DNA of 40,550 bases, taken from positions 1-40,550 of IMG/VR virus record IMGVR_UViG_3300037083_000014; one strand, written 5' to 3'. The stretch is from a virus. The notes beneath the pieces are model-generated. The model was not told the DNA's origin. It made no database searches and saw nothing but the letters and a program-made list of their open reading frames with translations. Positions 8,516 through 30,849 of the stretch are shown here, in pieces (position 1 is the stretch's first letter; every line of letters begins with the position of its first letter). A program made the position numbers and the translations under genes.

Positions 8516-9987
8516 TGGACTACTCCGGGTTTGTAGGCCCAGCGTATACCGTGCAAAGCCTCTCCGCCGACTGCCAGCGGTGCGTGAATCTCTATCCCCA
8601 AACCGATGAGAGTGGGGCTGGGAAGTCTCGTGCGATCCTGCTGAGTACGCCTGGCCTCGTGAGGTTAGCTGACGTGTCGGGAACGGCTACGGGAGGTGTG
8701 AGAGGCACCTATACGGCGTCCAATGACCGCTTTTTTGCCGTGGTGGGAGCTTATCTTTTCGAGCTTAGTTCCACGTGGAACATTCTAGGGACGTATGCCC
8801 TCCCCGGCGAAACCGGGATAGGCCAGGTCAGCCTGACAGACAACGGGCAGGACATGATGATCGCAACCGGCCCGAATGCATATTGGTTCAACTTCACCGC
8901 GAACACACTAACTCAGGTCACAGACGCAGTTTTCTTCGGGGCGACTACGTGCGGTTTCATCGATGGGTACATTGTTTTCAACCAGCCCAATACCCAGATA
9001 TTTTGGATCACGAACCTATATAGTACTGTTATCAATCCACTTGGCTTCGCATCCGCAGAGGGTAATCCAGACAATCTTCTCTCGCTGCTGGTGGATCACC
9101 GGGAGATATGGCTTTTTGGAGACGTGAGTACAGAGGTTTGGTACGACTCTGGAGGGGCTAATTTCCCATTCTCATTCATTCAGGGCGCATTCATCTCGCA
9201 TGGGATTGCCGCCCCATTCTCAGCGGCGCGATTGGACAACACGACCTTCTGGCTAGGCAACGATGAGTTCGGCCGGGGCATAGTATGGCGGGCAAATGGC
9301 TATGCCCCTATTCGCGTCTCCACCTTCGCTCTGGAGCAAGCGATCCAGCGGTATCCCACGATCACTGATGCCGTGGCTTGGACATATCAGCAGGACGGTC
9401 ACAGCTTCTATGTGCTGAACTTCCCCTCTGGAGATGCGACATGGGTTTATGATGCCGCATCGGGACTTTGGCATGAGCGCGGTTACCTCGGAACGTTGAC
9501 GGCGAATGATGGGCAGTTGCATCGTGGACGCCCTCAGACCCACAGCTTTGCCTTTGGAAAGCATGTGGTGGGAGATTGGCAGACTGGCTACCTTTATAGC
9601 CTGGACGCGACAATTGCCGAGGATGATGGACGAGCCATCAAATTCCTCCGCGCCGCGCCATTCATCAATAATGAGAACAAGCGTATCTTTTTCCATCAGT
9701 TTCAACTTGCGATGGAGGTAGGCCAAGGCAATCCTGGTGGCGATGGCCCTCCACCAGCAGCGCCAGCCGATCCGCAGATTTCACTCCGTTGGTCAGATGA
9801 CGGCGGGTATACATGGTCGAACTATCAGACGGTCAGCATGGGAGTTTCGGGGGCTTATACTACCCGCGTAATCTGGAGACGATTGGGGCAATCTCGCCAG
9901 CGGGTGTTTGAAGTATCGACGGGGCAAGATGCCATTCCGCTCAAGATGTTCGCGGCTTATCTGGAGCTTGAAGGAGTGAATAGCTAA
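8515..9987 (+). CDS. Packaged-DNA stabilisation protein, P22 gp10-like
   Basis: A 490-residue protein. The start 'MDYSGFVGPAYTVQSLSADCQRCVNLYPQ' and 'STPGLVRLADV' is the signature of the gp10-like (Phage_stabilise) family, which forms a beta-propeller hub beneath gp4 and attaches the tailspikes. Repeated aromatic-rich strands follow ('ASNDRFFAVVGAYLFEL', 'EIWLFGDVSTEVWYDSGG', 'GIVWRANGYAPIRVSTFALEQAI'). Start chosen at ATG 8515 because it overlaps the preceding stop; the in-frame ATG at 8488 would lie inside the upstream gene. Confidence 0.9.
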   Translation: MDYSGFVGPAYTVQSLSADCQRCVNLYPQTDESGAGKSRAILLSTPGLVRLADVSGTATGGVRGTYTASNDRFFAVVGAYLFELSSTWNILGTYALPGETGIGQVSLTDNGQDMMIATGPNAYWFNFTANTLTQVTDAVFFGATTCGFIDGYIVFNQPNTQIFWITNLYSTVINPLGFASAEGNPDNLLSLLVDHREIWLFGDVSTEVWYDSGGANFPFSFIQGAFISHGIAAPFSAARLDNTTFWLGNDEFGRGIVWRANGYAPIRVSTFALEQAIQRYPTITDAVAWTYQQDGHSFYVLNFPSGDATWVYDAASGLWHERGYLGTLTANDGQLHRGRPQTHSFAFGKHVVGDWQTGYLYSLDATIAEDDGRAIKFLRAAPFINNENKRIFFHQFQLAMEVGQGNPGGDGPPPAAPADPQISLRWSDDGGYTWSNYQTVSMGVSGAYTTRVIWRRLGQSRQRVFEVSTGQDAIPLKMFAAYLELEGVNS

Positions 9988-10490
9988 TGCCGATTGTGAC
10001 TCCTCCTCCAGTTCCTACGCGAAGCCAAGTGGTCGATTCCAGCGGACTCGCAACGCGCCCTTGGATGGCATGGTTCACCACTCTGGGGCAGCAGTTCGGC
10101 TTCAATCAGACCATTGAAAGCGACGGGGAACCGCTGCCAAACGAGGTCGCACTGAATTTCCTTGCACCTTTCATCATCGAGGATAATCCCGCCAATGGCT
10201 CGACAGATGTATCCCTTGCATTGTTTCAATCGGGAACAGCAAGTGCTCCCTATACCGGCAATGACTATACCAGTGTGAACGTCACTTTTCCCACGCCATT
10301 TGCTGCGATCCCCAAAGTGTTCGTGAACCCTACGAACTTTCCGCGTCTTGCCAATGCGCCCATGAGTTGTTATGCGACGAATATCATGCCCACCGGATTT
10401 ACCGCGAACATCGCGTGCTCCGTACCTACCGGCGGCGGGGGCGCGACGGTGGACAATGCCATCGGCATAGATTGGATGGCGATACCATGA
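9987..10490 (+). CDS. Tail protein with H-type lectin-like C-terminal domain
   Basis: A 167-residue protein. The N terminus 'PVPTRSQVVDSSGLATRPWM' is a segment often seen at the start of phage tail-fibre adaptor proteins. The C-terminal half (about 90-167), 'VNVTFPTPFAAIPKVFVNPT' through 'GIDWMAI', resembles H-type lectin/fibre-tip beta domains that bind sugars or trimerise. It is encoded directly after gp10, where P22 encodes its tail needle and spike components, so a needle, adaptor or receptor-binding role is likely. Start overlaps the previous stop by one base. Confidence 0.65.
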   Translation: MPIVTPPPVPTRSQVVDSSGLATRPWMAWFTTLGQQFGFNQTIESDGEPLPNEVALNFLAPFIIEDNPANGSTDVSLALFQSGTASAPYTGNDYTSVNVTFPTPFAAIPKVFVNPTNFPRLANAPMSCYATNIMPTGFTANIACSVPTGGGGATVDNAIGIDWMAIP

Positions 10491-11246: not shown

Positions 11247-12032
11247 ATGAGCAATAGCGTTGTGACCAGCACAGTCGTAGCCGATGCAGATGGTGTGGCG
11301 TGGGCGAATGCAACATGGACAGCTCAACTTCCCAAGCCTTTCTCGAACTTCCCAGCCGCGACGGTCTCAGGCGTTGCCGTACCCACGCTTGTGACCGGGA
11401 CTTTGGACGCAAACGGCACGATGACGGCAACTCTCACGGATACGAGTTCGCTTGATCAGCAGGGACTCCAGTGGACGTTCACGTTCCAGCCCACGGCGAA
11501 CGTTCCGGCTCAGTCAATCACAATGCCGGTGGTGGGGTCTACGCCGAATCTCACGGCAGCTTTCTCTCTCCTTCCGGGGCTTCGATTCAATGCTGGCTCC
11601 AAAGCATATGGGTATGCCGATGTGGAAGTGCAGACGCCGGTGAATCCAGGCGCGAGCTATTTCCGCGTTGGCGTGGGAGTGCGGACGTGGAATGGGACTG
11701 CATGGACAAACGCTCCAGGTGCTGCGACCTACATCACTGCCGCTGGAGCAATCCCACTGGTCAGTGGAACCTATTCGATTGGGAGCACCGGGGCTCTAGC
11801 CATGACTCTCGCCACTCCTACGACTCCAGCCCAGGATGGCATTACCCTCACTATCATCGCCGGCACCGCTCATGCTCATACGGTGACCACCGCTGCGAAC
11901 AAGATCGTTCCCAGCAAAGACACTGTGACCTATGCTGCTGTCGGCGATTACATCACTCTTCAAGCCATCGCAGGGCTGTGGTTCAATCTGGGCATTGGAG
12001 GCCCCACGCCTGCCATTCTAAGCGAGGTGTAA
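11247..12032 (+). CDS. Tail fibre/virion protein with N-terminal Ig-like domain
   Basis: A 261-residue, Thr/Ala/Gly-rich, beta-stranded protein. The N-terminal part, 'DADGVAWANATWTAQL' then 'TGTLDANGTMTATLTDTSSL' and 'QGLQWTFTFQPTANVPAQSI', fits a small beta-sandwich domain found at the start of phage fibres and cell-surface proteins. The middle resembles fibre shaft. The C terminus 'GTAHAHTVTTAANKIVPSKDTVTYAAVGDYITLQAIAGLWFNLG' is a common phage virion beta motif. AGGAG precedes ATG 11247; a short CCCC-AAAA-GGGG hairpin (11205-11216) lies in the 53-base leader. Confidence 0.65.
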   Translation: MSNSVVTSTVVADADGVAWANATWTAQLPKPFSNFPAATVSGVAVPTLVTGTLDANGTMTATLTDTSSLDQQGLQWTFTFQPTANVPAQSITMPVVGSTPNLTAAFSLLPGLRFNAGSKAYGYADVEVQTPVNPGASYFRVGVGVRTWNGTAWTNAPGAATYITAAGAIPLVSGTYSIGSTGALAMTLATPTTPAQDGITLTIIAGTAHAHTVTTAANKIVPSKDTVTYAAVGDYITLQAIAGLWFNLGIGGPTPAILSEV

Positions 12033-12492: not shown

Positions 12493-13235
12493 CCGAAGAG
12501 CAGATATTTCGGAAGCACGAATGCCTGGGACTGGAATGCTCTATTGCTGCGGCAATTGTGGGAGGCGCAGCTATCTCCGGAATCGGCTCTTTAGTGGGAG
12601 GAGCGGAGCAAGCCTCTGCCGCAAACAATGCTGCCTCCATTCAGCAGCAGCAATATCAGCAGACGCTCCAGAATCAGCAGCCTTACATGCAGGCCGGTCA
12701 AACTGCGCTGAATACCATCGGTCAAGATCAGGCGAATGGAACGGGATTTGCAGCCAGCTTCAATCCCTCAACTTACATTGACACTCCGGGGTATCAGTTC
12801 CAACTCCAGCAAGGGCAGAATGCAATCAACTCCTCTGCTGCGGCTACGGGAGGAGTGCTGAATGGGGGAACGCTCAAGGCCCTGGATCAGTACACGACAG
12901 GGCTAGCGAACACAACCTATGGGCAGGCTTATAGTCAATACCTCCAGAACAGCCAGCAGCAGTACAACCAGCTCTATGGAGTAGCGTCTCTGGGTGAGAA
13001 TGCCACAGCTTCTACGGGCCAAGCAGGGGCGAACGCTGCGAACGCTACAGGAAACTATCTCACGCAAGCTGGGAATGCGGAAGCTGCGGGTACGGTCGGA
13101 GCTGCGAGCGGGATCAATCAAGGCATCAATAATGGATTGCTCTACAGTGCGCTGCAAAGCTCTCAGTCGGGCTATGCGCAGCCCACCACCACGGGCGTCC
13201 CCTATCCACAAGCGAATCTTGGGGGCCAGGGATGA
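12489..13235 (+). CDS. Ejection/DNA-transfer (internal virion) protein, gp7-like
   Basis: A 248-residue, Ala/Gln/Asn-rich helical protein. The hydrophobic, glycine-rich segment 'IAAAIVGGAAISGIGSLVGG' near residue 20 is followed by a long Gln-rich region ('IQQQQYQQTLQNQQPYMQAG'). This layout (glycine-zipper-like hydrophobic patch plus amphipathic helices) is typical of podovirus pilot or ejection proteins, which leave the capsid with the DNA and help it cross the envelope. GTG start overlaps the previous TGA (GTGA). First of three adjacent genes likely to encode an ejection apparatus, as P22 gp7, gp20 and gp16. Confidence 0.75.
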   Translation: MTEEQIFRKHECLGLECSIAAAIVGGAAISGIGSLVGGAEQASAANNAASIQQQQYQQTLQNQQPYMQAGQTALNTIGQDQANGTGFAASFNPSTYIDTPGYQFQLQQGQNAINSSAAATGGVLNGGTLKALDQYTTGLANTTYGQAYSQYLQNSQQQYNQLYGVASLGENATASTGQAGANAANATGNYLTQAGNAEAAGTVGAASGINQGINNGLLYSALQSSQSGYAQPTTTGVPYPQANLGGQG

Positions 13236-14734
13236 TTGATGCAGCGATCCCCCTCGCAGTAACGCCAGTGAATGTGGGCCAAGCCCTTTCGCAGGCGGGA
13301 AACATCGTTGGGCAACAGCAGACCCAGCAGCTCAATGGACTGCGGATACAGGATGCGGGGCTGACCCTCGCGCAGAACCAGCAGAATGCTCAGGACGAAG
13401 CTGATGTCCGCGCCGCTACTGCGGCTGCTACAGACCCTCAGACTGGACAGCTCGATCGCGGGGCACAGCTCTCAACGTTGGCGAAGTTGAATCCCACGAA
13501 GGCTCAGCAATTGGCGACTTCCTATGCCACGCAAGACACTGCGACGGCTGAGGCCAAGGCCAAGCTGACAACTGCACAGCTTGCCGCCGCGACAGCAACG
13601 AATGATGCGATGGATAAGGTTTTGCAGGGGGTGAACGATCAGGCGAGCTATACGAATGCTCTGCAACATGCCCAATCTCTAGGCATCAATGTGAGTCAAT
13701 TTCCTCAACAGTACGATCCACAGATTGTGGCGCGGGCGCACCAGCAGGTGCTTTCGACTCAACAAGTGCTAGCGCAGCAGAACGAACAGGCAACTCAGGC
13801 TGAGACGGCCCGGCACGATCAAGCGATGGAAGTCCATACGCTTGAGCATGTGCCATTGCAAGGGCCATCTGGCCCAATGATGGGGAACTTCGATCCGAAA
13901 AAGGGTACCTATACCGACACTGCCGGGAATGTTATAGCGAATCCGAAGCCTATTCCTTCCCCCAATATGATGGTAATGGGGAATCAATTAGGAGGCACTC
14001 AAAATTCCGCTGCTCTAGACTTCGCAGCAAACGCCTATCGGCAGACACTGCAAATGCCAGCGGGTATGTCACGGAGTCCAGGAACCGTCGCTGCAATCAT
14101 CGCCCGCGCAGCTCAGTTAGATCAGCAGGACGGAGGAATAGGGGGCGCTGGAAATAAGGCGCTTCTGGCAGCTAGCAGCAAATCTCTCGATAGCTTGCAG
14201 AAGAACTACGATCAGGTTCAGGCATTCGAGCAGACTGCGGAGAAGAATATGAACTTGCTCCAGCAGACGGCGCAGAAGATTCCTGATCTCGGCGCTCGGT
14301 TTGCGAATATTCCCGTTCGATCCATTACCTCATCGATGCTGGGAACGCAGAATATGGCCGCATTCAACACGGCGCTCAGTGTCGCCCAGACCGAGGCTGC
14401 AAAGGTGCTGACTTCCTCGAACGCGTCTGGGGGGGTCTTGTCTGATTCCGCGCGTCACGATATGCAGGATATTGTCGATGGCAATATGCCACTGCCCGCA
14501 ATGATCGCCTCGCTCAATACACTCAAGCAGGATATGGCGAATCGAACGCAGGCTTATCAATCTCAAATCGGGGATATCCAGAACCGCATTAAGGCGGCTG
14601 GAACTCCGGGAGCGGGAAACGAGGGCGGGACGACCTATAAGCAGACCGCAACCGGCCCCGGCGGCCACAAGATCGGCTCGAATGATGGGGGCACCACTTG
14701 GGTTGATGTTCAGACCGGGAGGCCGGTGCAATAA
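13232..14734 (+). CDS. Ejection (internal virion) protein, gp20-like position
   Basis: A 500-residue protein dominated by Ala/Gln/Thr-rich helices, with almost continuous heptad-like segments in residues 15-200 and 310-450, then a disordered Gly/Thr-rich C terminus with 'GGTTYKQTATGPGGHKIGSNDGG'. It lacks enzymatic motifs. Composition and order suggest the second ejection protein of a P22-like virion. The start overlaps the preceding stop by four bases and its last base is the first base of the next start (TAATG), so the three ejection genes are translationally coupled. Confidence 0.7.
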   Translation: MIDAAIPLAVTPVNVGQALSQAGNIVGQQQTQQLNGLRIQDAGLTLAQNQQNAQDEADVRAATAAATDPQTGQLDRGAQLSTLAKLNPTKAQQLATSYATQDTATAEAKAKLTTAQLAAATATNDAMDKVLQGVNDQASYTNALQHAQSLGINVSQFPQQYDPQIVARAHQQVLSTQQVLAQQNEQATQAETARHDQAMEVHTLEHVPLQGPSGPMMGNFDPKKGTYTDTAGNVIANPKPIPSPNMMVMGNQLGGTQNSAALDFAANAYRQTLQMPAGMSRSPGTVAAIIARAAQLDQQDGGIGGAGNKALLAASSKSLDSLQKNYDQVQAFEQTAEKNMNLLQQTAQKIPDLGARFANIPVRSITSSMLGTQNMAAFNTALSVAQTEAAKVLTSSNASGGVLSDSARHDMQDIVDGNMPLPAMIASLNTLKQDMANRTQAYQSQIGDIQNRIKAAGTPGAGNEGGTTYKQTATGPGGHKIGSNDGGTTWVDVQTGRPVQ

Positions 14735-15798
14735 TGCCTCCTCCGGCTGGATATACACTCGATTCCTCGGCCCCGAATTTGCCTCCCGGCTATACGTTGG
14801 ATACGCCATCTCCGGCAACATCGACAACTCAAGCCCAGCCGGAAGGCTTCTGGCACTCGCTGGGAGCGCAGTTTGGCCTCACACCGGAGGCTTCACAAGC
14901 TGCTGTAGACGAAATGAAGGCCCATCCCCTCATAGATGCGGCCAAATCCCTCCTAGGGCCAGCGGCCCCGTTCATTAAAGGCCTCTACAATCAAGTGAAA
15001 TCGAGCGGATCGGAAGCATATCAGGCAGGAAAATCTCTCGCGCAGGGCAATCCCGCCGCCGCTGGCGTTCATGCGGTTCAAGCAGTTCCCATCATAGGCC
15101 CCGCCATAAACAAGATGGCCGAAAATTCTCCGGCTACTACGCCGGGACAGTCTTATCTTAGCCAAGTAGGTGCCGACCTCACTCCGGGCAATCTGGGGAC
15201 TGCGCTGGGCGCAGCAGCCCAAGTGGCCCCTCTTGCTCTTGGCGCGGCGGACGAAGCCCTTCCGGGGCGTCCGAAGATTCCGAATCCTTCCCTTCCCAGC
15301 CGTGCGAACGCAGCTTCGGTCTTCAACGATCTCAATACCAAGCTAGCAACCCAACCTATTCCGCTGAGTGATACTCTCGCACCCCTCCAACGCGCGACGG
15401 AGATTGGTGTGCGGGGTGGGTCATTGCCGAAACCGATCTCCGATCTTTTGACGCGCTCTCAGTCCCCAGTGCCGATGACCTTCCCCGAAGCGCGAGACTA
15501 TCAAATGAGTCTCACTGATCTCTCGCGAGAGCAGCAAGCATCCCTCACGCCTCGTATGAAGGCTCAGGTTGCTCAGGTCAATCAGGGGCTTTTCAACGAT
15601 ATTCATGCTGCGGCTGAATCAGCGCAGCCCGGACTTGGCTCGGATTTTGCGAATGCCATGAAAGAATACCGACAGGCTTCGCAGGTCAAGAATGCGATTG
15701 ATGCTGCAAAAAAGATTGCGCTTCCTGTCGCGGCAACTGCGATAGCTGGAGGGGGCGGCGCATTGGCTCTTCGCTATCTTTCGGAGATTGGCAAATGA
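14734..15798 (+). CDS. Ejection (internal virion) protein, gp16-like position, GYTLD repeats
   Basis: A 354-residue protein. The N terminus contains two copies of a short repeat, 'PPAGYTLDSS' and 'PPGYTLDTP'. Similar 'PPGF/YxLD' repeats head large phage internal or structural proteins. The centre is Ala/Pro/Gly-rich helices with hydrophobic patches ('VQAVPIIGPAINKMAEN', 'ALGAAAQVAPLALGAADEALPG'). A C-terminal helical region ends with a hydrophobic segment 'ALPVAATAIAGGGGALALRYL' (about 328-349), possibly membrane-inserting. These fit an ejected protein that forms or enters the periplasmic conduit. No lytic transglycosylase motif is visible. Confidence 0.65.
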   Translation: MPPPAGYTLDSSAPNLPPGYTLDTPSPATSTTQAQPEGFWHSLGAQFGLTPEASQAAVDEMKAHPLIDAAKSLLGPAAPFIKGLYNQVKSSGSEAYQAGKSLAQGNPAAAGVHAVQAVPIIGPAINKMAENSPATTPGQSYLSQVGADLTPGNLGTALGAAAQVAPLALGAADEALPGRPKIPNPSLPSRANAASVFNDLNTKLATQPIPLSDTLAPLQRATEIGVRGGSLPKPISDLLTRSQSPVPMTFPEARDYQMSLTDLSREQQASLTPRMKAQVAQVNQGLFNDIHAAAESAQPGLGSDFANAMKEYRQASQVKNAIDAAKKIALPVAATAIAGGGGALALRYLSEIGK

Positions 15799-18677
15799 TG
15801 AAACGCATACTTTTGACCCTGATGCTCGTCCTCTCCTTCTCGGCACTGGCGCAGAGGCCCGCGCTCGTCTCACCGGTGATCCGATTCTCTGACTCTAACG
15901 GGAAACCCTTACAGGGTGGCTTTCTTTATAGCTATGCTGCGGGGACGACGACGCCTCTGCAAACCTATAAGGACTCTACCAGTGGCACTCTCAACACGAA
16001 TCCCGTGGTGCTTGATTCGACAGGCAGTGCCACTGTCTTCCTTGGCGCGAACGTTTACAAGCTGGTCCTCCAGAACTCTTCTCATGTCCAGCAATGGAGT
16101 GCCGACAATATCGCGCAGGGCATGTTTCAGTCCTCATATGTGCAAAGCGTTTTCGGGCGCACGGGAGTAGTGACGGCGCAGACAGGTGACTATAGCTGCT
16201 CAATGATTACCGGGGCCATCTGTTCTATTCCGAATCTCTACAATCAGACGGTTCAAGTTTCAGGTACCTCGGCAACTCAGCGGCCTATTCTAAATTTCCT
16301 CCCCGGAGTAATTGGGTCGATCTTCACATTCAGCGCATCGGGCGGCACGAGCTATTCCACGGGCCCTACTGTGACCTTCACGGGAGGGGGATGCACCTCT
16401 GAGCCGACCGGAGGGGTTTCTGTTTCAGGAGGTGCTGTCACCAATCCGGTCATTACATTTGCTGGGTCTGGATGTACCACTCCTCCAACTCCCGGTTTCT
16501 CAGGAGGCGGAGGAATGGGAGCCACCGGTTCGACGACTCTCACTCCGACCGGCATCACCTGTGTAGACGATCCCAGCCATACCTCGACGGACTGCACTTT
16601 TGCATTTGGGACTGGCAGTGGAGGTGGAGGAGGTTCATGCACCCTCACTAATAAGACATCGACGAGCACCCTGGGGACGACCTATCAAAATACGACCACC
16701 GGGATTATGTATCTCAGCGGAGCCGGGCAAACCTTTGGATCATCTGTGGGAGAGCTTTATGTTGCTGAGGGGCTATCGAGTCCCACAGTGAAAGTCTTCG
16801 ATACTTCGCCTACAGCGACGGTGGATGGAGGTGCAGCAGGATTTTTCGCGGCGATCTTGCCCGGATACTACTATTCCGTGGTGGGGAGTGCTGCGGTAAA
16901 CGATACGACCCCAAAATACTGGGTAGAAGTAACGGGCTGCGGTGGTGGGAGTAGTGGAGCTACTTTCACTCCGACCGGCATCCAGTACGCCACTTCACCC
17001 ACTGCCGCCACCGTCGCCACAGCCTCACAGATGTTCGCCGCCTTTGGAGTGCAGAGTGCAAACTGCTTCTTCGCTGGGCCTACATCAGGGAGTGCCGCGA
17101 TACCGACATGCAGGGCGATTGTGCCGCTTGATCTGGGGACAGGAACGGCATCGTCGAGCACATTCCTTCGCGGCGATTTGACGTGGGCTGTGCCTAGTGG
17201 CTCCGGAACCGTCAGTCCCGGCAGCGGCTATGCTCTCCCCGCCTACCCTTCCGGAACCTCGACCACGGTGGGGCCGACAAATATCACAACGGACTCTTCG
17301 GGGAATAATCTATCAGTGCCGGGTACGGCCACCTCAGCAGTCTCTGTCACAGTAGGCACTTGCCCTCTGAGTGGTAGCGGCACCGGCCTTGGTTGCGATG
17401 AATATTCCCTTGCCACACTGCCATCGGCGGGAATCTCTGGGTTTACCACCGTTGCATCTGATGGGTCAGGAATGGCTCAAGCTATCGGGGCAACAACATT
17501 TAGCCATTTCTGCACAGCGGCGAATTACTCCTCGCTTTGCCCCGGTTCTGGCGCGACTCTACAGGTCAACAGCGTCAATAATTCCAGCCAAGCGTTGCTG
17601 AATGACGAGACCTCGACGACGAACGCCACAGGTCTGACTGTCACACCCTCGAATCCCTCCGGCGGAATTGTGAAGCATGAGATTACGGGAACTGTAAATC
17701 TCGGCAACATGGCGCAGCTCTTCGTGGATAACCCGCAGACCTCGACCTACAACGCGGTCACGGCTGACCTGCTGGGGTGCAAGACCATCACGATAGCCTC
17801 TGGTACATTCACGATTGGGTTATTGGCTACAGTGCCCGCGTCCGGCCAATGCCTCCAGGTCATCAACTATGGCACTGGAACGATCACAGTGAGTCCGAAC
17901 GGCCACAACCTCAACGGCTCTTCGTCCAGCGCGACAATCCCTCCTGGATCGGCTTCGGCGGCGACGGGTGGCTACTTCCACAGCGACGGAACGAATTATG
18001 AAGGCGTGTGGAGCGGTACTAATTCAGGCGTTACAGCAGTTTCGATTGTTTCGGCAAATGGCGTATCGGGCACCTCATCTGGTGGCACTACACCCGCGCT
18101 TACGATTGCGCTGGGCGCGATTACCCCAACAACGGTGGTGGCCTCAACATCAGTCACGTCTCCTTCCGTAATCGCGACCACCAGCTCCAGCGTCAACACT
18201 GGCTCCGCAAATAATGGCTTCATCACCACGGCCAAGATTGCCCAGAACAACACATCCGTGCTGGGATGGGAGAACTCGGCCACGGATGCAACAGGTTCGC
18301 TGGACACGGGCCTTTCACGCGATGCGGCGGGTGTGGTGGATGTGGGCAATGGGACTGCTGGGAATACGAGCGGCACACTCCAATTAGGTCAATTGAACGT
18401 GGGTGTGACGACCTCTGGCGTGCCTGTAGCCGGGACTTGCGGAGGGGGTACCGTACACTCTGGCAGCAACAACAATGCCTTTTCCGTGACGGGAATCACT
18501 GCTACTACTAGCTGCACAGTCACATTCTCTAAAAATCTCTCGCAAGGTCTTTGCGTGGCAAATGCATTGAGCGGCGGAGTTCCTATTGCAATCTCAGCCG
18601 CAACTCTCGGTTCTTCCTATGTGATCTTCACGACGGCAGCAGCGATGACAGGAAGCATCACGGCGATATGTTTTTAG
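15795..18677 (+). CDS. Large tail fibre protein with Sec signal peptide
   Basis: A 960-residue protein. Residues 1-20 form a classical Sec signal (MMKR, hydrophobic LLTLMLVLSFSALA, then Q). Residues 25-110 form the fibre-anchoring type domain ('RFSDSNGKPLQGGFLYSYAA', 'TYKDSTSGTLNTNPVVLDST', 'YKLVLQNSSHVQQWSADNIA') used to attach many fibres/spikes to the tail. 'FGRTGVVTAQTGDYS' at about 120 is the usual fibre linker. The rest is Gly/Ser/Thr-rich repetitive beta shaft with 'GGGGG' hinges and 'PTGITC/PTGIQY' repeats. It is presumed a receptor-binding fibre. A signal peptide on a virion fibre is odd; see findings. The start overlaps the previous stop. Confidence 0.8.
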   Translation: MMKRILLTLMLVLSFSALAQRPALVSPVIRFSDSNGKPLQGGFLYSYAAGTTTPLQTYKDSTSGTLNTNPVVLDSTGSATVFLGANVYKLVLQNSSHVQQWSADNIAQGMFQSSYVQSVFGRTGVVTAQTGDYSCSMITGAICSIPNLYNQTVQVSGTSATQRPILNFLPGVIGSIFTFSASGGTSYSTGPTVTFTGGGCTSEPTGGVSVSGGAVTNPVITFAGSGCTTPPTPGFSGGGGMGATGSTTLTPTGITCVDDPSHTSTDCTFAFGTGSGGGGGSCTLTNKTSTSTLGTTYQNTTTGIMYLSGAGQTFGSSVGELYVAEGLSSPTVKVFDTSPTATVDGGAAGFFAAILPGYYYSVVGSAAVNDTTPKYWVEVTGCGGGSSGATFTPTGIQYATSPTAATVATASQMFAAFGVQSANCFFAGPTSGSAAIPTCRAIVPLDLGTGTASSSTFLRGDLTWAVPSGSGTVSPGSGYALPAYPSGTSTTVGPTNITTDSSGNNLSVPGTATSAVSVTVGTCPLSGSGTGLGCDEYSLATLPSAGISGFTTVASDGSGMAQAIGATTFSHFCTAANYSSLCPGSGATLQVNSVNNSSQALLNDETSTTNATGLTVTPSNPSGGIVKHEITGTVNLGNMAQLFVDNPQTSTYNAVTADLLGCKTITIASGTFTIGLLATVPASGQCLQVINYGTGTITVSPNGHNLNGSSSSATIPPGSASAATGGYFHSDGTNYEGVWSGTNSGVTAVSIVSANGVSGTSSGGTTPALTIALGAITPTTVVASTSVTSPSVIATTSSSVNTGSANNGFITTAKIAQNNTSVLGWENSATDATGSLDTGLSRDAAGVVDVGNGTAGNTSGTLQLGQLNVGVTTSGVPVAGTCGGGTVHSGSNNNAFSVTGITATTSCTVTFSKNLSQGLCVANALSGGVPIAISAATLGSSYVIFTTAAAMTGSITAICF

Positions 18678-18706
18678 CTATACGCTGGTGAACTAAGGAG
18701 CGCACT

Positions 18707-19660
18707 ATGAATCTAAAACGATGGAGAAAACTGCTATATCTGCTTCTCATCCCTGCGGCACTGGCGGCGCAGACAAACGTAAACTCAACCTACCTCTCTT
18801 CTCCTCTGACGGCGACGAGTCAAACCAGTGCGCCAATCAATCTATCCAATCGTAGTTGGAGCGCGGGTACGATTCAACTTACCGGAGTTAGCCTTACCAC
18901 GGCGACCTTCGGAGTGCTCGGCAGTTCCGATCCAGCTTGCGGTTCAACTACTTTCCAACCCATCGCCATCAACCTGTTCTCCACACCGGGGACAGTGGCG
19001 ACTACGATGACCGCGACCGCGACTGCGCTCTATCAGGTAAATCTCGCGGGGCTTTACTGTATCGAATATCAAACATCGGGCACCTTCACTGCAACCAGCA
19101 TCACCCTGCTCCTCACCGCTTCGCCCAATGCCATTGTTGGGCGGAGTGGTGGGGGCAGCGGCTCAGCTGTGACCGCAGTTTCAATTGTGACGGCCAATGG
19201 ATTCTCAGGAACCTCCTCTGGTGGGACTACGCCTGCGCTGACTATCAACGCGCTCACCTCCAGTCAAGTCACCACGGCCCTCGGCTTCAATCCGGGCGCA
19301 CAGCCGAATGTGGTGACCACGAGTACCTTCACATTCAGCGGAGCAGCGGGGTTCTACGACAACGAGAACTCCACGGCTGGGACGGCTGTCACAGGGACGC
19401 TTCCTACAGCTTCCGTCTCGCCGGTCGTCCTACAGTACTGCTTCGACAATGCTAACAATGGCAGCGCGGCAAACACGGGTGTACTGACGTTCCAGACCTC
19501 GGCGACGGGGCAATACATCATCTTCACGGACGGGACACTCTCGGCTAGCGGCGGCTACGTCTCATCGGGCGGCGCAGCGCGGGATGCTGGGTGTGTGCGG
19601 GCGGTGGATTCGACGCATTGGATGTTCTACACCAACACTGGCACATGGACGAAGCACTAA
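18707..19660 (+). CDS. Tail fibre-like protein with Sec signal peptide
   Basis: A 317-residue beta-rich protein. The N terminus MNLKRWRKLLYLLLIPAALAA-Q is a strong Sec signal peptide. Then come Thr/Ser/Ala-rich strands and a segment 'VTAVSIVTANGFSGTSSGGT' that is closely similar to one in the upstream 960-residue fibre, showing common ancestry or modular exchange. The C terminus 'GQYIIFTDGTLSASGGYVSSGG' through 'DSTHWMFYTNTGTWTK' resembles fibre tips. AAGGAG precedes ATG 18707. Likely a secondary fibre or a fibre-tip/adhesin. Confidence 0.65.
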   Translation: MNLKRWRKLLYLLLIPAALAAQTNVNSTYLSSPLTATSQTSAPINLSNRSWSAGTIQLTGVSLTTATFGVLGSSDPACGSTTFQPIAINLFSTPGTVATTMTATATALYQVNLAGLYCIEYQTSGTFTATSITLLLTASPNAIVGRSGGGSGSAVTAVSIVTANGFSGTSSGGTTPALTINALTSSQVTTALGFNPGAQPNVVTTSTFTFSGAAGFYDNENSTAGTAVTGTLPTASVSPVVLQYCFDNANNGSAANTGVLTFQTSATGQYIIFTDGTLSASGGYVSSGGAARDAGCVRAVDSTHWMFYTNTGTWTKH

Positions 19661-19672
19661 GGGAGACGACTG

Positions 19673-20461
19673 ATGAAACTACAACGCCTATTGATCTGCG
19701 CGGCTCTACTTGCCACCTCCTGCACGGAAGTCGCGCATGGGCCAGCGCAGATCAGCCTACCGATTCTGGCGTCGTCGGGCGGAACCCCCAGTGTTACTCC
19801 CCCGGCGTTGATTGCGGGCTCCTATACCGGAGAGGTGATAGCTGTCTCTTCGACAACGTGGTCTCACGCCCTGATCGCGACGGTAAACAGCGGGGATTTG
19901 CTAACTGTAGCGAGCGGAACGAATAATGGAGGGACGACTTCGATCACGGCCCAGACCGGAAGTGGATGCCCAACCGCCTATACCTCGTGGGTGGCAGGGC
20001 CAGTAACAAATAGTTACAGCAATTACAACCTTCAGGTGTATCACGCATCGGCGGCTGGTACCGGGGCTTGCACGGTTACATTCACGTCCACGGTGACACA
20101 AACCAATCCATCGGCAAGCTCTGTTGAATTTGGCCCGGTGGCAGGGCTTGATGGGACAGAAGTTGGAGTAGCCTGTGGCAGCTTCGCTTCGCCCTGCACC
20201 GTGACTTCGGGCAGCGCGACCACCCATGCGAACGATTGCGTATTGGTTTCCTCATGGAACTCAGACGACGCAACCACTTACGTCCCCACGACAGGCTCGG
20301 TACCAGCCAGCGGATCATGGAGCAGCAACCTTCTCACATCAGGGAACTACCCGAATTTCAACGAGGTGTGCAGCGTCAGTTCGGGCGTGACGCCTTCGCT
20401 GGTGGCGACGATGAGTTCAGCGGTATCCGTCGCTCAGGACATGCTTGTGATGCACAACTAG
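19673..20461 (+). CDS. Tail-associated protein with lipoprotein-like signal
   Basis: A 262-residue protein whose N terminus 'MKLQRLLICAALLATSCTEV' ends in an acceptable lipobox (A-T-S-C), suggesting export and possible lipidation; a plain Sec signal is the alternative. The mature part is Ser/Thr/Gly-rich beta structure with paired cysteines ('GVACGSFASPCTV', 'HANDCV', 'NEVCSV'), consistent with disulfides formed outside the cytoplasm. It sits between two fibre genes. Function unknown; possibly an adhesin, or a lipoprotein altering the infected cell's surface (superinfection exclusion). GGGAGA precedes the ATG. Confidence 0.6.
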   Translation: MKLQRLLICAALLATSCTEVAHGPAQISLPILASSGGTPSVTPPALIAGSYTGEVIAVSSTTWSHALIATVNSGDLLTVASGTNNGGTTSITAQTGSGCPTAYTSWVAGPVTNSYSNYNLQVYHASAAGTGACTVTFTSTVTQTNPSASSVEFGPVAGLDGTEVGVACGSFASPCTVTSGSATTHANDCVLVSSWNSDDATTYVPTTGSVPASGSWSSNLLTSGNYPNFNEVCSVSSGVTPSLVATMSSAVSVAQDMLVMHN

Positions 20462-20468
20462 GAGAGCC

Positions 20469-23400
20469 ATGATGAAGATTCGACACATCGCGGCGCTCTG
20501 TCTACTTTCCTCCATTTTCTCGACAGGTCACGCACAGACGAGCATTGCAATCCCCGCTGCCTCCGGTGGTGGGATCAAGCATGTGCTTCCGCAGCGGTTC
20601 GGCATCAATCTGGACTCGCAGAACGGTGCTGCCAACAGTCAGATGATGGCGAACCTGATTGCTGGGAACGGCGCCACCTTCGCGCCTCAGATTTGGAACC
20701 AGGGTTCAATCTGCGCGGCCAGCGGCGCAACGACAACCGTGTGGCCGGACAATGTTACGTTTGGAGCGCAGCCTGCAAACTTTTGGCAGGGCGCGACGTA
20801 TCAGGTTTACAGCGGAGCCAATATTGGAGCGACCGGCACGATCACTTCGAATACGATGGCGAACGGATCGACGACTGGTGCGCTCTACACGCTCTCCGCG
20901 GCCCTCAGTTCGCCGTGCGCGGCCAATGACATTCTAATCCTGCGGTGCCGGACGGCGAACAGCACATGCGCCGGTGGGCTGACTCCGGCGCACGTCTCCG
21001 GATTCGGTGCGTTGTCGCTTTACTTCACTGGAGCAGGTGCCGCAACCTTTGAAACTTCCGATCTTTCGCCCTCGTCTGCATCTACGCAAGCCCTGCAACT
21101 GTATGCGCCGGTCTATAGCTCGGACGAGTTCTCGAATGATAATGCAGCCATCAACCCCGGATTCGATGGTGCAATCGGGCCGTTATGGACGGGCAACTGG
21201 CTGAACATGAACGGCACCTATACGCTGACCTTCCGGGCAAAAGCATCGTCTGCCGGCACGGGTACGCCGACCATCCGCTACAAGGTTTCTCGGACTGGAG
21301 GGGGTACGGTTTGGCTCAACAGCTTTGTGACCCCGACTGTCAATTCAACACCCGGCGCAGGATGGACGAACTATTCCTTTTCGTTCTCCGCCAGCGAGAC
21401 GGGGGCGCAACCTGTCCAGCCCGTCATCGTACAGGTGTTGGGCACTGGTGGAACGATTCTCGTACAGGACGTGGCCCTTACGGAAGCTCAGACTGCCACC
21501 GGGAACGATACGGCCTTCCGCGATGCGGTCTTCCTCTACCTGCAAGCGCACAAGCCGGGCACCCTACGCTTTATGAATGGCGCGATCGCGGGGTGTACAC
21601 TCGACGCCCTCATTGCGACTTCGCCGCTATCCTGCGGCAACACCATCTTCGCTCAATACGGCTATGTGAATGCCTGGAACCTGAACCAGTTTCTCTACCT
21701 CGCCGCGAAGGTCGGGGCAAACCCATGGTTCACGATGAGTCCGTTTGCGACTCCGGCGGACTGGGCGAATGCAGCGGCTTACTTCAACGCGCCATGCTCC
21801 AGCGGCAACAGCTACGCTACCATCCGCTGCAACTTCCTCGCGGGGACGCCTTACGCAGGGGAGACGTGGGTGCAGGTATTCAATAGCGTTGCACCGAGCG
21901 GCGTCGGTAATATCTATCTCGAAAACGGCAATGAGGTTTGGAACGTATACGGGCAGACGGTGTTCTGGAACAACTCGACGAGCTACGGTCTGTTGGTGGG
22001 GGCCGATAACGCCGCGCTCAAAACATCGGCCTACTACTCCTCGCAGATTCATCAGGTCGCGTCAGGCTTCGTCGGATCACCGAGCGGCCCTTATAGCTGG
22101 GCCTATGCTGTAATGACTGCTGCTTGCGGGATCACGAATGGCTGTCCGGACTTCATCGACGGCGCACCCTATGTCTTCAACTGGGCGACCGATATGAGTA
22201 CGCCGAATGTCTGGACTTCGATGTTTGCCGAGCCGGTGAACTTGAACTCCACGAGCGGCGGGAACGTGAATCAGATGCAGGTGGAGGCTGCTGCCTTCGG
22301 CGCGAATACCGCGATCTACGAGACGAACCTTGGGACGGGAACCGGCATCACCGGCGACACGCAAAGCCAAATCAACGGGATTGTTGCGGGCGTGGGTTCG
22401 GGACTCGACGCTACGCTGAATATGCTGCTGGGGGCGAGGGACGTGGGGATTGGAGTGCAAAACTTCTTCTCCCTGCCGGAGATTGCAAACGAGTGGTCGG
22501 ACTGCACCTCGATCACCTCGAACTCCTGTGCAGCGAACAGTGCTCTCTTCGCCCCGCTGTGGGGCGGCAACCGCTACATGCCGGGGCCGGAAGCGTCGGG
22601 CATCATGGATCGGCCGTCAGGTCTGATGCTGCAAGGGATCAACCAGGCGATTGGAACCAAGCTGAACCTGCTGAACACGGTGCAGACCGGGACACCGACG
22701 TACAGTCAGGCTGCGGCACAGCCGTTGCCCACTTACGTCTATCCCTTCACGGGCAATCTGAACTCAACGACGACGGTTTCCTCGGTGTCCAACTTCGGCG
22801 GATTGATCGTGGGCGGGGTCATCACCGGTACCGGAATCCCCACCGGCGACACGATTGCATCGCTGAACTCCGGAGCGGGCACGCTTACCCTTGCGGTGGC
22901 GGCTACGGCGACGGCTACGGGCGTCAATCTGACTTCGGCCTTCATGACCATTGCGGCGAACTCAACGGTACCCTATGTGCAGGCATTCGGGTTCGGGGAT
23001 GGGCTGGGGAATTACTCAGTCATCGCCTACAACCTCGATAGCGTGAGCAGCCATGCGATCACCTTCACAGGCTCCGGCGCGCCGACCGGCTCCTGCACCA
23101 AGACCGTCTTCACAAGCACGAACATCACGGACAATAACGAAACCACATGGCTGGGCGGCACGCCGGTGGTGAGCTATCCGTCCCCTGGATCCTACCCCAA
23201 CTGCTATACCGGCGACACGCTGCCGCCGTACTCGATGACGACCTATGTCTATGCGCCAGGGGCGGTGACGGCCTACCCTCCGACCTTCTCTCCGCCAGCG
23301 GGAAGCTACACAGGGACGCAGACGGTGACACTGGCGACGGCCACTGGTGGATGCACCGCGGATATTGTCTGGAACACGACGAACGCGCAGAGCGGTGGGA

Positions 23401-25358
23401 ACCTCACCGGGACGAGTTCGACCAATCCGATCACCGTGTCCGCGACCGAGACGATCTACGCCCAAGTGCAGGGCTGTGGGGGGTATCTGAACTCGTCCAT
23501 CAGCTCTGCGGCCTACACGATCTCAACCGGCGCGCAGACATGGTATGTTCGCACCGACGGTGGCTCGATCTACGACGCCAACCAACCATCTGGCCAGTGC
23601 GACGGCAAGGGTGATGCAGCCTATCCTGGCACCGGCGTGAACCAGCATTGCGCGGTGAATGACTTCCGCTATCTTTGGGACGATCAGAGCGGCGTTTCGG
23701 GAGCAAGCTATCTCTGGCAGCCAGCGGGCGGCGATACCATCATTATTCGTGGGTGCGCCCACAATGCGCATCAGACGGAGAACTATTCCCCGGACTGTAG
23801 GATCGGGTGGGACACACCGACCGGCACACCGTACACTTGGGCAATAGGCCGCTCGAACGGTGGAGCACACATGCCACCGATCCCCAACGGCACCTCTGGA
23901 CAACACACGGTCATCGAGGGCGGAAACTTCGCATCGTGCGCTGCAAAGTCGAGTGCGGCAGTCCTCTTTGGGGGTTTCGGAGTTTCGTGGGAAGTAGACT
24001 TGACCGGATCGCCGTATGTTGATCTCAACTGTCTCAACATCACATCTCACACTCAGGCAGTCAGTGGCACAAACGGCATCTGCATCACGCATGGGACTGG
24101 TTATGGGGTTCCATGTAACACCACGGTAGGCTCAAGCCTGAGCGACTATGACGGCGATGGCATCGAGACCACCAACACTACCGGGCCTGTCAACATGACG
24201 AACGTGTGGCTTGATGGGCACTCCTCATCTGGAATACATGGGCCAATCGGCGGGATCATCACGCTGAACCACGTTTACTTTCAGTTCAACGGATTCGCCG
24301 GGTGGAACTTCGATGATGGCTCGGCCACCCCTGATGGATCAGGCGCGCAGTTGTTACAGTCCTACGTGACCATGCTGGGAAATGGCTGCAACCAGGAATG
24401 GCCTATCGTCGATGCTTACCCAGGTCAGCTCTGCTTCGACCTCAACGACGGAGGATTTGGCGATTCGTGGAGCGGACAGCAGACCAATCTCGGCACACTT
24501 ACCTGCGACCACTGCACCGTCCTCTACAACACGAAGGACGGAATGATCGGGCCACACACTTTCCTCGCCAACATGTCACTTACAAATTCGACGTGGCAGG
24601 GAAACATGGGTCAGGTGTGGAAGTGGAACTCTCAGACGGGGGCAGTAGAAACGGCGACTAACAACGTCATCAACGGCAACTGCAACCGCATGTCTCAGCC
24701 GATCACTGGATGGCCTTCCGGCTTCAACACTCCCCTGAGTCTCTACTGTCGTGCTTCTGCGGACGTAATCAGCGTCTCCGGTGCGCCATCCAGTGTGATG
24801 CTGTTTGCCAATAACACAATCACTACTTACCAGAATACGATCTGGGATTTCAATTGCGTCACAGTCAACGGATGCACTACGGCGCAGTACATCACCAAGA
24901 ACAACCTGATCTGGGGGGATACAGTCGCAACCAATTACTACCCCGGCGCGAACGGCAACGCCCCAGGCGTCTACTACATCTCAGACTCGTCCGATATGGT
25001 GACGGCCAGTTACAACCTTGAGTTCGGAGTGCGCGATGGGACGTGTTACGGAGGAGGCGTCGGGACGAATGGCGTTTGCGCCGACCCACTGCTCACCGGA
25101 GAGCCAGCTCAGGGCAGCGTTCCTCCTGAGACCTCGATGGACGTGTTCTCGGCTGTGGGGACGGGCTTCTATCCGACCTCCAGCAGCCCCGCCAAGCTCG
25201 CCGGGACGACCTACACGGGCTTGCCGAGCACCGACTTCTACAACACGGCCACCACCAGCCCTCCGGTCATTGGGGCCGTGAATGCAATGGCGGCGGCGGG
25301 ATTCAGCACGATCACCTCTGGACATACAATCAAATCGGGCCACATCATCACGCAGTAG
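20469..25358 (+). CDS. Giant tailspike: glycoside hydrolase, chitobiase-like and beta-helix modules, with Sec signal
   Basis: A 1629-residue protein. Residues 1-22 are a Sec signal ending 'STGHA'. Residues about 200-340 form a carbohydrate-binding-like beta domain. Residues about 345-740 look like a TIM-barrel glycoside hydrolase: 'IYLENGNEVWN' (481-491), with Glu489 after Asn as acid/base, and 'AIYETNLG' (615-622), with Glu618 as the likely nucleophile. This matches clan-A hydrolases whose motifs read 'E.sNEvWN' and 'YEgG'. Residues about 937-1019 resemble a chitobiase C-terminal Ig-like domain ('PTFSPPAGSYTGTQTVTLAT'). Residues about 1024-1600 ('WYVRTDGGS' onward) look like a right-handed parallel beta-helix as in depolymerase tailspikes. 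It probably degrades capsule or exopolysaccharide. Many cysteines suggest disulfides. Confidence 0.8.
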   Translation: MMKIRHIAALCLLSSIFSTGHAQTSIAIPAASGGGIKHVLPQRFGINLDSQNGAANSQMMANLIAGNGATFAPQIWNQGSICAASGATTTVWPDNVTFGAQPANFWQGATYQVYSGANIGATGTITSNTMANGSTTGALYTLSAALSSPCAANDILILRCRTANSTCAGGLTPAHVSGFGALSLYFTGAGAATFETSDLSPSSASTQALQLYAPVYSSDEFSNDNAAINPGFDGAIGPLWTGNWLNMNGTYTLTFRAKASSAGTGTPTIRYKVSRTGGGTVWLNSFVTPTVNSTPGAGWTNYSFSFSASETGAQPVQPVIVQVLGTGGTILVQDVALTEAQTATGNDTAFRDAVFLYLQAHKPGTLRFMNGAIAGCTLDALIATSPLSCGNTIFAQYGYVNAWNLNQFLYLAAKVGANPWFTMSPFATPADWANAAAYFNAPCSSGNSYATIRCNFLAGTPYAGETWVQVFNSVAPSGVGNIYLENGNEVWNVYGQTVFWNNSTSYGLLVGADNAALKTSAYYSSQIHQVASGFVGSPSGPYSWAYAVMTAACGITNGCPDFIDGAPYVFNWATDMSTPNVWTSMFAEPVNLNSTSGGNVNQMQVEAAAFGANTAIYETNLGTGTGITGDTQSQINGIVAGVGSGLDATLNMLLGARDVGIGVQNFFSLPEIANEWSDCTSITSNSCAANSALFAPLWGGNRYMPGPEASGIMDRPSGLMLQGINQAIGTKLNLLNTVQTGTPTYSQAAAQPLPTYVYPFTGNLNSTTTVSSVSNFGGLIVGGVITGTGIPTGDTIASLNSGAGTLTLAVAATATATGVNLTSAFMTIAANSTVPYVQAFGFGDGLGNYSVIAYNLDSVSSHAITFTGSGAPTGSCTKTVFTSTNITDNNETTWLGGTPVVSYPSPGSYPNCYTGDTLPPYSMTTYVYAPGAVTAYPPTFSPPAGSYTGTQTVTLATATGGCTADIVWNTTNAQSGGNLTGTSSTNPITVSATETIYAQVQGCGGYLNSSISSAAYTISTGAQTWYVRTDGGSIYDANQPSGQCDGKGDAAYPGTGVNQHCAVNDFRYLWDDQSGVSGASYLWQPAGGDTIIIRGCAHNAHQTENYSPDCRIGWDTPTGTPYTWAIGRSNGGAHMPPIPNGTSGQHTVIEGGNFASCAAKSSAAVLFGGFGVSWEVDLTGSPYVDLNCLNITSHTQAVSGTNGICITHGTGYGVPCNTTVGSSLSDYDGDGIETTNTTGPVNMTNVWLDGHSSSGIHGPIGGIITLNHVYFQFNGFAGWNFDDGSATPDGSGAQLLQSYVTMLGNGCNQEWPIVDAYPGQLCFDLNDGGFGDSWSGQQTNLGTLTCDHCTVLYNTKDGMIGPHTFLANMSLTNSTWQGNMGQVWKWNSQTGAVETATNNVINGNCNRMSQPITGWPSGFNTPLSLYCRASADVISVSGAPSSVMLFANNTITTYQNTIWDFNCVTVNGCTTAQYITKNNLIWGDTVATNYYPGANGNAPGVYYISDSSDMVTASYNLEFGVRDGTCYGGGVGTNGVCADPLLTGEPAQGSVPPETSMDVFSAVGTGFYPTSSSPAKLAGTTYTGLPSTDFYNTATTSPPVIGAVNAMAAAGFSTITSGHTIKSGHIITQ

Positions 25359-25429: not shown

Positions 25430-25789
25430 GTGGAGCGTGACGAGATTGAATCTGTCGCGGAGGGCAAGGTGAAACTGGCCATCGCGGAACTCAAATCCGA
25501 AATCCTCCCCACACTCGCCAAGATCGAGGAACGTATTATCGGCATCGACGGCAATGGGACTGGCCGGATGGGTGCGATCCAAATCCTCGAAGGCAAGTGC
25601 GACAGTATCGCCGGGGATGTGGGTCTCCTGCTGGCGCGCGGGTCTGAGATCAAGGGAGCGTTGAGCGAACGCCAGAGGGATAAGGATGGGCGTTGGTGGA
25701 GGCAGCCTCTATGGACGGGGTTGGTCGCCGGATTCGCTGGCGCGTTCTTTGCTGCCCTTTTTGGGTATTTTTCGCTTCGAGGACACTGA
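25430..25789 (+). CDS. Coiled coil plus C-terminal membrane anchor; possible holin or spanin
   Basis: A 119-residue protein: charged helical N-terminal part ('VAEGKVKLAIAELKSEILPT', 'KIEERI') and one transmembrane helix near the C terminus ('LWTGLVAGFAGAFFAALFGYFSL', about 93-115). This topology resembles XhlA-like holin-associated proteins. GTG 25430 follows AAGGAGAGGTAG, the strongest ribosome site of the region, so it heads the lysis cassette. The start of the lysis enzyme gene overlaps its stop (TGATG). A holin, antiholin or inner-membrane spanin role is inferred from place and topology only. Confidence 0.6.
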   Translation: MERDEIESVAEGKVKLAIAELKSEILPTLAKIEERIIGIDGNGTGRMGAIQILEGKCDSIAGDVGLLLARGSEIKGALSERQRDKDGRWWRQPLWTGLVAGFAGAFFAALFGYFSLRGH

Positions 25790-26163
25790 TGACCTACGAA
25801 CAAAGTACCGGTATATTCAGGGGCACTGATGGAACAATTCTCGCTACCGGTTATTCTGGCAACGGCCAGTGGATGAATGACCCGGCGAGCCAGAACGTCA
25901 AAGATCACGGCCCCATCCCACAGGGCGTCTACACCATCGGCGAGCCAGAGCAAGACCCTGTGACCGGCCCGGTAAGTATGCGGTTGCAACCGGCAGCGGG
26001 GAACGAAATGTTCGGGCGTGGGGACTTCCTGATCCACGGGGACAATGCTCTAATGGATCATACGGCGAGTGATGGCTGCATCATCCTGCCGCACCCCGCA
26101 CGATTGACGGTCGCAGCAGCAGTTTTGGGTGGAGACAATCAGCTAACGGTGGTATCCTCGTAG
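25789..26163 (+). CDS. Tlde1/DUF2778-like L,D-transpeptidase-fold lysis enzyme
   Basis: A 124-residue protein. 'TGYSGNGQWMNDPASQNVKD' then 'HGPIPQGVYTI', 'GPVSMRLQP' and 'MFGRGDFLIHGDN' match the Tlde1 (DUF2778) family, and the active-site string is H83-G-D-N then H91-TASDGC97, i.e. the HG..HxxSxGC pattern of YkuD-like L,D-transpeptidases with Cys97 as nucleophile. Known Tlde1 proteins are type VI effectors that trim tetrapeptide stems or exchange D-amino acids in peptidoglycan. Here it stands where an endolysin is expected and no lysozyme or amidase is seen, so it is probably the phage peptidoglycan enzyme. It has no signal peptide, so release would need a holin. ATG 25789 overlaps the previous stop. 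Confidence 0.85.
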   Translation: MTYEQSTGIFRGTDGTILATGYSGNGQWMNDPASQNVKDHGPIPQGVYTIGEPEQDPVTGPVSMRLQPAAGNEMFGRGDFLIHGDNALMDHTASDGCIILPHPARLTVAAAVLGGDNQLTVVSS

Positions 26164-30209: not shown

Positions 30210-30373
30210 CACTGCTTCCTCCCTTCGTCCTCATCCGGCCACACACCCCATGCGCTTACTTCGCAGTTGGTCTTCCAGTGCAGTTTGGCTATCTCCCAGA
30301 GCATGAGCATGGCAGTGAGTGGGGTGTCGAGCTTGTCTATAGCGTAGGACAGAAACAGGCTGAGTAGGGTCAT
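30209..30373 (-). CDS. Small membrane-associated protein
   Basis: A 54-residue protein with a hydrophobic N-terminal half ('MTLLSLFLSYAIDKLDTPLT' then 'AMLMLWEIAKLHW') and a hydrophilic tail. ATG 30373 has GGAG 8 bases upstream and overlaps the previous stop (ATGA); the stop overlaps the next start (TGATG). It may be a membrane peptide; function unknown. Confidence 0.55.
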   Translation of the reverse strand: MTLLSLFLSYAIDKLDTPLTAMLMLWEIAKLHWKTNCEVSAWGVWPDEDEGRKQ

Positions 30374-30849
30374 TGGGTGGCTCCTTTTTTGCACGGAATA
30401 CCCTGCGGATGGTTGCTGTCGAGGACGGTGTTGTAATCGCAGTCGTCTGGATAGGTGGCAACCGGAGCAGGCTTATGATCTGGCATGAAGTCTGCTGGAT
30501 GCTGAAGCTCTTTGGATAGCTCATATGCGGCTTCAGCAGGAGTCGCGGCGGTTGCAATCCAATAGGGCAGTGCTCCATCCTCAATATAGACTGCATCATG
30601 AGGGGTAGCGTTTGTTTTGGCGACCGCTTGAAATTGCTGATCTTCTTCTTCTCCCTTGGGAACGCAGAAGACATACCAGTAGACACCTTTTTGAGCAGCG
30701 ACATTCTGGAGCGCGGCTACTTTCTGGGCGTCAGTTAGCTGAGATTCGAGGACGACGTGCGTTCCAGTCGCGTCAATAACTTTTACCTTGGCATCGCATC
30801 CGCACAAACTTAGTATGGCAAGCACTGCGGTGAAGCGGAGGAGGGTCAT
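30370..30849 (-). CDS. Lipoprotein
   Basis: A 159-residue protein. The N terminus 'MTLLRFTAVLAILSLCGCDA' is a signal sequence ending in a lipobox (L15-C-G-C18). The mature part contains 'SQLTDAQKVAALQNVAAQKG' and 'ATPAEAAYELSKEL', helical, with two more cysteines near the C terminus. Early phage lipoproteins commonly block superinfection at the envelope; that role is inferred. An outer-membrane spanin is less likely because it is far from the lysis cassette and on the other strand. Confidence 0.7.
   Translation of the reverse strand: MTLLRFTAVLAILSLCGCDAKVKVIDATGTHVVLESQLTDAQKVAALQNVAAQKGVYWYVFCVPKGEEEDQQFQAVAKTNATPHDAVYIEDGALPYWIATAATPAEAAYELSKELQHPADFMPDHKPAPVATYPDDCDYNTVLDSNHPQGIPCKKGATQ

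Follow-up and report, generated by a model that had tools for sequence, protein, structure and literature searches.

Signal sequences ahead of the tail genes of a P22-like podovirus suggest an exported tail-spike module

The stretch of viral DNA considered here, called the window in what follows, is 40.5 kb of the IMG/VR virus record IMGVR_UViG_3300037083_000014. Its portal (phrog_156), coat (phrog_283) and head-closure (Hc3, phrog_578) genes are P22-like head genes. Beyond them, in the tail region, lie four consecutive genes (genes 1 to 4) that concern us, together with a comparison protein encoded upstream. The features are as follows (a slash marks a predicted cut here and below):

11247-12032, + strand: comparison protein, no signal, no Cys; its N-terminal domain is the signal-bearing one of genes 1 and 2 in the relative G005
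13232-14734 and 14734-15798, + strand: the two genes directly 5′ of gene 1, no Cys, no signal
15795-18677, + strand: gene 1, tail spike or fibre of 960 aa, made of a signal, a P22-type head-binding domain and a fibre body
15795-15851, + strand: gene 1 signal peptide MMKRILLTLMLVLSFSALA, cut predicted before Q20 by a rule-based score
15852-16115, + strand: gene 1 head-binding (virion-docking) domain, residues 20-107, from PDB 7eeq, AF2 and Foldseek
18707-19660, + strand: gene 2, fibre-like, 317 aa, signal at 18707-18769, 4 mature Cys
19673-20461, + strand: gene 3, lipoprotein-like, 262 aa, signal at 19673-19720, lipobox LATS/C, 6 further Cys
20469-25358, + strand: gene 4, multidomain, 1629 aa, signal at 20469-20534, 34 mature Cys

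Going by position, the two genes directly upstream of gene 1 would fill the ejection-protein slot of a P22-type layout; a family search gave no match for their products. Downstream of gene 4 come small genes and then a gene with a Tlde1 domain, and from its position this is presumed to be the lysis region. The latter gene (25693-26163; Tlde1 or L,D-transpeptidase-like domain, PF10908, E 2.6e-18) may code for an unusual lysis enzyme. At a nearly equivalent place, two close relatives of the phage, G004 (IMGVR_UViG_3300036893_000017) and G005 (3300048502_000081), have respectively a similar gene (L004:20875-21252) and one that looks lysozyme-like by eye (L002:15306-15749). Elsewhere in the window, a small protein without family match begins with a lipoprotein-type start, MTLLRFTAVLAILSLCGC, in a block of genes on the opposite strand (30370-30849, - strand). 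The one tRNA gene of the phage is a tRNA-Cys (gca) (40021-40096), which, speculatively, would fit late expression of very cysteine-rich spikes. Two separate regions, 9987-10490 and 15795-16115, match one and the same family, phrog_26190, at its positions 163-255 and 6-92, as if a protein that is single elsewhere were split in this phage. The phage comes from soil, and its host, judging from the relatives, is probably an acidobacterium. Two contig scans, one with a gene 4 alignment and one with a docking-domain alignment and a narrow pattern, found no relatives.

An earlier note on this DNA had claimed that four adjacent genes begin with Sec or lipoprotein-type signals, and this was borne out. 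All four are open reading frames where the note had placed them, each with a Shine-Dalgarno-like sequence upstream of its start (GGAG, AGGAG, GGGAG and AGGAG for genes 1 to 4). All four pass a rule-based score, as do no other + strand genes of at least 200 aa in the window. Genes 1, 2 and 4 have the attributes of SPI signals under this rule (basic n-region, hydrophobic core, small residues at -3 and -1), with predicted junctions MMKRILLTLMLVLSFSALA/QRPA, MNLKRWRKLLYLLLIPAALAA/QTNV and MMKIRHIAALCLLSSIFSTGHA/QTSI. Gene 3 has a lipobox-like junction, MKLQRLLICAALLATS/CTEV, with Cys at +1; the motif LATSC is kept in G004 and G005, and the product appears lipoprotein-like, with a putative lipid anchor. 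A stricter rule was passed by 5 of 475 distinct genes of at least 200 aa, drawn from the surroundings of the head-closure gene in 79 loci of related podoviruses. If the upper confidence limit of this background rate is used, finding 4 signal-bearing genes among 14 in the window still has a probability of about 3e-4. Composition by itself satisfies the rule rather often, as 22-45% of composition-preserving shuffled N-termini pass, and it is therefore conservation that bears most weight. Between the window and G004, the first 24 codons of gene 1 differ by three synonymous and no amino-acid changes, and change is mainly synonymous in two of the four window signals. The signal of gene 4 reads differently in its relatives (MKRLVYLALLCAFPIAA/Q in G004, MLSKNLVLFLVLLFSGALFA/Q in G006), while the mature protein behind both is the same. 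We discarded matches to the rule lying within the docking domain itself (L149, L166, L168). Taken together, the Sec signals of the module are almost certainly real.

Such modules recur among related phages. All four genes of both G004 and G005 carry signals, although the signal or mature sequences are sometimes unrelated to those of the window. G001 (3300044833_000040) has a docking spike with a signal; a reverse-strand frame of this genome that also passed the rule was discarded. Two more distant P22-like phages, G002 (3300010233_001178) and G008 (3300047388_000130), have four and at least six signal-bearing genes, and G003 and G007 one docking spike apiece. In a group of phages of 97-231 kb, G006 among them, a gene 4 homologue and its neighbour both have signals. 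Cultured Acidobacteriota phages show them too: five genes in Tunturi 1 (gp12, 13, 14, 16 and 17) and two in Tunturi 4 (gp113 and gp114). The tail genes of Tunturi 3, by contrast, have no signals and little Cys, although the same strain was used to isolate both it and Tunturi 1 (PMC11924767). Near the head-closure gene of another podovirus, a gene for 276 aa (L041:8110-8940) also begins with a convincing signal, MNKRIFLAALGLLTTSAVA/Q.

The residue following the cut is itself peculiar. Gln occupies +1 in 23 of 27 predicted SPI sites overall, and in all three of the window. On plasmid pACIX901 of Granulicella tundricola (L284-L303), Gln follows AxA in 36 of 63 predicted exported proteins as against 30 of 167 others, which suggests a bias resembling the Q-rule outside Bacteroidetes. 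That rule was published as a feature of Bacteroidetes, and Acidobacteria go unmentioned there (PMC5837995).

Gene 1 shows what one of the signals is attached to. Similarity to its residues 20-107 is seen in tailspikes and fibres from isolated podophages (Xanthomonas PBR31, Rhodoferax P26218 and others), in which the initiator Met sits at the docking domain itself and the whole signal stretch of gene 1 is missing. A profile of the domain matched the solved head-binding domain of the cyanophage Pam1 in the PDB (7eeq, E 1.9e-15; 2e-5 for the window sequence alone) and also spikes of Pan3, another cyanophage. An AlphaFold (AF2) model built from 66 sequences (pLDDT 81) was matched by Foldseek to the spikes of Pan3, Pam1, P22 and Sf6. 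Among the four genes, gene 1 alone has this P22-type domain, at its N-terminal side, none being recognised in genes 2 to 4; the body of gene 1 had no match in the family search. Signals are rare before the domain: 134 of 141 distinct docking frames are without one and 7 have one. In these seven, the predicted mature Gln lies 12, 12, 12, 12, 13, 14 and 15 residues from the conserved motif, and the commonest distance from the start Met in unsignalled frames is 12. Of the 29 most conserved positions, 25-28 are intact in the signal-bearing copies. With conservation and spacing both alike, it follows that the docking domain was already functional when a signal was placed in front of it; the predicted cut would restore the usual N-terminus of that domain. 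In a tree of the domain (95 columns) the signal-bearing copies cluster, yet in more than one clade: signal state changes four times on the best tree, and well-supported branches force at least two changes. Because a 19-residue Sec signal precedes the domain, gene 1 is a variant and not a plain P22-type tailspike. No separate unsignalled spike gene with a docking domain appeared in the stretches read of the window, G001, G002, G004 and G008. Docking of gene 1 to the virion is thus strongly implied, as far as sequence goes, and its product is likely to be found there.

The same graft seems to have befallen a second phage domain. The unsignalled comparison protein (11247-12032) is homologous, from its first residues on, to the post-signal part of two G005 proteins, those of genes 1 and 2, with 29-34% identity. 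Both signal-bearing copies have gained a C-x6-C pair that has no counterpart in the unsignalled protein.

The other three genes are less easily read. Gene 2 is a mosaic, its C-terminal part being common to G005 (98.5%) and its N-terminal part to G004 (99%). When 18707-19660 is set against L002:7739-8842, the C-terminal 135 aa are 98.5% identical, with N-terminal parts that are unrelated and yet each provided with a signal. The last 570 aa of gene 4 are 27-28% similar to Tunturi gp17 and gp114, and gp17 of Tunturi 1, in part homologous to that C-terminus, has a weak beta-helix match. The relative of gene 4 in G006 has chitobiase-C-like domains, and a stretch of gene 4 itself, IYLENGNEVWN, resembles a clan-A glycosidase by eye. 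AlphaFold gave a poor model of its residues 1-930 (4 sequences, pLDDT 35), so that the glycosidase idea is a motif reading. For gene 4, a PDB sequence search gave no convincing relative and plasmids gave none; a family search detected no peptidoglycan hydrolase or lysozyme domain in any of the four genes. Genes 2 and 4 probably encode additional parts, of spikes or of enzymes, and we infer that their products dock to the virion. For gene 3 a lipid-anchored partner is the probable product; it may tie something to a membrane, and whether it docks to the virion is uncertain.

Cysteine offers an independent view of the fate of these proteins. The earlier note had pointed to its abundance in the last two; the abundance is there, but it is not limited to them, as the first protein has 20 in its mature form as well. 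Signal-bearing proteins have a median of 2.17% Cys, as against 0.43% in the remaining proteins of these phages (P 3e-10), with a few spurious calls on the signal-bearing side. If every Cys were paired in disulfides after cleavage, mature proteins should have an even number of them. This is so in 31 of 34 after predicted signal removal, compared with 21 of 34 uncut precursors and 34 of 60 unsignalled controls; with one protein per homology cluster, it holds for 20 of 23 (P 2e-4). The cut sites were chosen without regard to parity and the lipid-bearing Cys of gene 3 and its homologues was left out. The list was mostly fixed before parity was seen; the homologues still missing, together with one or two cases, were added afterwards. 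Richness in cysteine as a general trait of export in the host was rejected: predicted exported proteins of the Granulicella plasmid have 0.51% Cys vs 0.82%, so that this richness is a property of the spikes rather than of export in general. Too few cases were at hand to compare Cys within a shared GDY fibre motif. Export and disulfides of the module proteins are well supported, and it is very likely that the proteins are cleaved and disulfide-bonded.

How would such spikes reach a virion? Made with Sec signals, they would be carried across the inner membrane and lose the signal in the periplasm, the cut usually exposing Gln and, in gene 1, the P22-type head-binding domain. Disulfides would form and the proteins fold there, at the same time as DNA is packaged into heads in the cytoplasm. 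Lysis would then mix cytoplasm and periplasm, and the head-binding domain would attach to the tail hub of particles already filled with DNA. P22 heads take their tailspikes last, and do so in vitro too, which makes late docking plausible for a virus of this type. The sequence supports the signals, the identity of the domain and the parity of Cys; from these we infer actual cleavage, the timing of events and the virion location of each protein. On balance it is probable that the spikes are added to virions at lysis or later. As a whole, the reading that the four genes form an exported tail-spike module of a P22-like podovirus, with products exported, cleaved, oxidised and docking at lysis, has in our estimate a probability of about 0.62.

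Three explanations had been put forward in the earlier note, of which exported fibres joining virions at or after lysis is now the best supported: the head-binding domain comes directly after the predicted cut and the Cys parity fits. Against it stand the want of a recognised docking domain in genes 2 to 4, a putative lipid anchor on gene 3, which would impede release with virions, the predicted exported proteins of Granulicella, whose low Cys makes this residue no general mark of export, and the small minority (7/141) that signal-bearing docking domains represent. Its main competitor, rather unlikely in our opinion, has the exported proteins remain free or cell-bound, as matrix depolymerases, or as decoys or exclusion factors that mask receptors on the infected cell, all foreign to the virion, the domain of gene 1 being a relic. 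Action of this kind at the cell surface or in the matrix, as the note had proposed, agrees with a lipoprotein-like gene 3 and an enzyme-like gene 4 (the chitobiase-C-like domains in G006, the glycosidase-like motif), and phage-coded Sec export has a precedent in the endolysin Lys44 (PMC6116005). Against it, the docking domain is equally conserved with and without a signal, five docking-bearing genomes show no unsignalled docking spike in the stretches read, and the four genes are located in the tail region.

A mixed fate, in which an unexported share becomes part of virions inside the cytoplasm and the exported share acts outside, would square the docking domain with the export signal; Cys parity, however, suggests a functional form that is fully paired, hardly to be expected of a cytoplasmic pool, and we hold this improbable. 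The third proposal of the note, an uncleaved N-terminal helix that stays on in the virion as a membrane or assembly anchor, is disfavoured. The N-termini are hydrophobic indeed, but they end in classical -3/-1 sites, with Gln as the next residue in 23 of 27 cases, parity is nearly always even only once the signal is removed, and most homologues dock without any such helix, their N-terminus matching the predicted mature one; this makes the anchor very improbable. Least credible of all is an artefact of wrong start codons or of N-termini that are hydrophobic by chance. Many shuffled sequences do pass the rule, but the ribosome sites are good, two of the four signals change mainly at synonymous positions, relatives keep the property with different sequences, and the background is 5/475.

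Comparison with known systems shows what would be new here. The spikes of P22 (gp9), Sf6, Pam1 and Pan3 have the head-binding domain at the mature N-terminus, as gene 1 would have; they begin with the domain itself and their folding is cytoplasmic, whereas gene 1 begins with a Sec signal and has a Cys-rich body. The tail spike of PBR31 and the fibre of P26218, relatives through the docking domain with a gene order similar to that of the window, have no signal and, unlike gene 1, no more than 0.65-0.84% Cys. Known phage proteins with signals include endolysins, spanins and surface proteins. Lys44 of phage fOg44 has a true Sec signal, is exported during infection and acts at lysis (PMC6116005), but endolysins of this type are lysis enzymes foreign to the virion, and no lysozyme domain was found in genes 1 to 4. 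Porphyromonas phages have Q-rule genes of unknown function with signals cut before Gln (PMC10367356), as in the window, though in Bacteroidetes hosts and with no link to tail spikes. The Tunturiibacter phages Tunturi 1 (gp12-gp17) and Tunturi 4 (gp113-gp114) have consecutive signal-bearing, Cys-rich tail genes and homology to the C-terminal part of gene 4; the P22-type docking domain of gene 1 was not seen in their modules, and the publication describing them does not mention signals in its main text (PMC11924767). We found no paper on signals of receptor-binding virion proteins or spikes of tailed phages in the searchable literature, which comprised few subscription papers and no preprints. 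The window proteins are variants of P22-type spikes; their assembly route, if real, would be new.

The assembly of tailed phages is taught as wholly cytoplasmic, a picture that exported, disulfide-locked spikes would alter. There is about an even chance that many Acidobacteriota phages finish their virions outside the cytoplasm, with Sec-exported, disulfide-linked receptor-binding proteins added at lysis. With Tunturi 1 and its host in culture, the export route is directly testable. Export would explain the very large Cys-rich spikes of some soil phages and would bear on how such spikes are best expressed in the laboratory, while the signals would serve as a sequence mark for receptor-binding proteins in acidobacterial phages, most of them unannotated. 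If true, tailed phages would have a second assembly line, one arrived at more than once by setting signals before docking domains that already existed.
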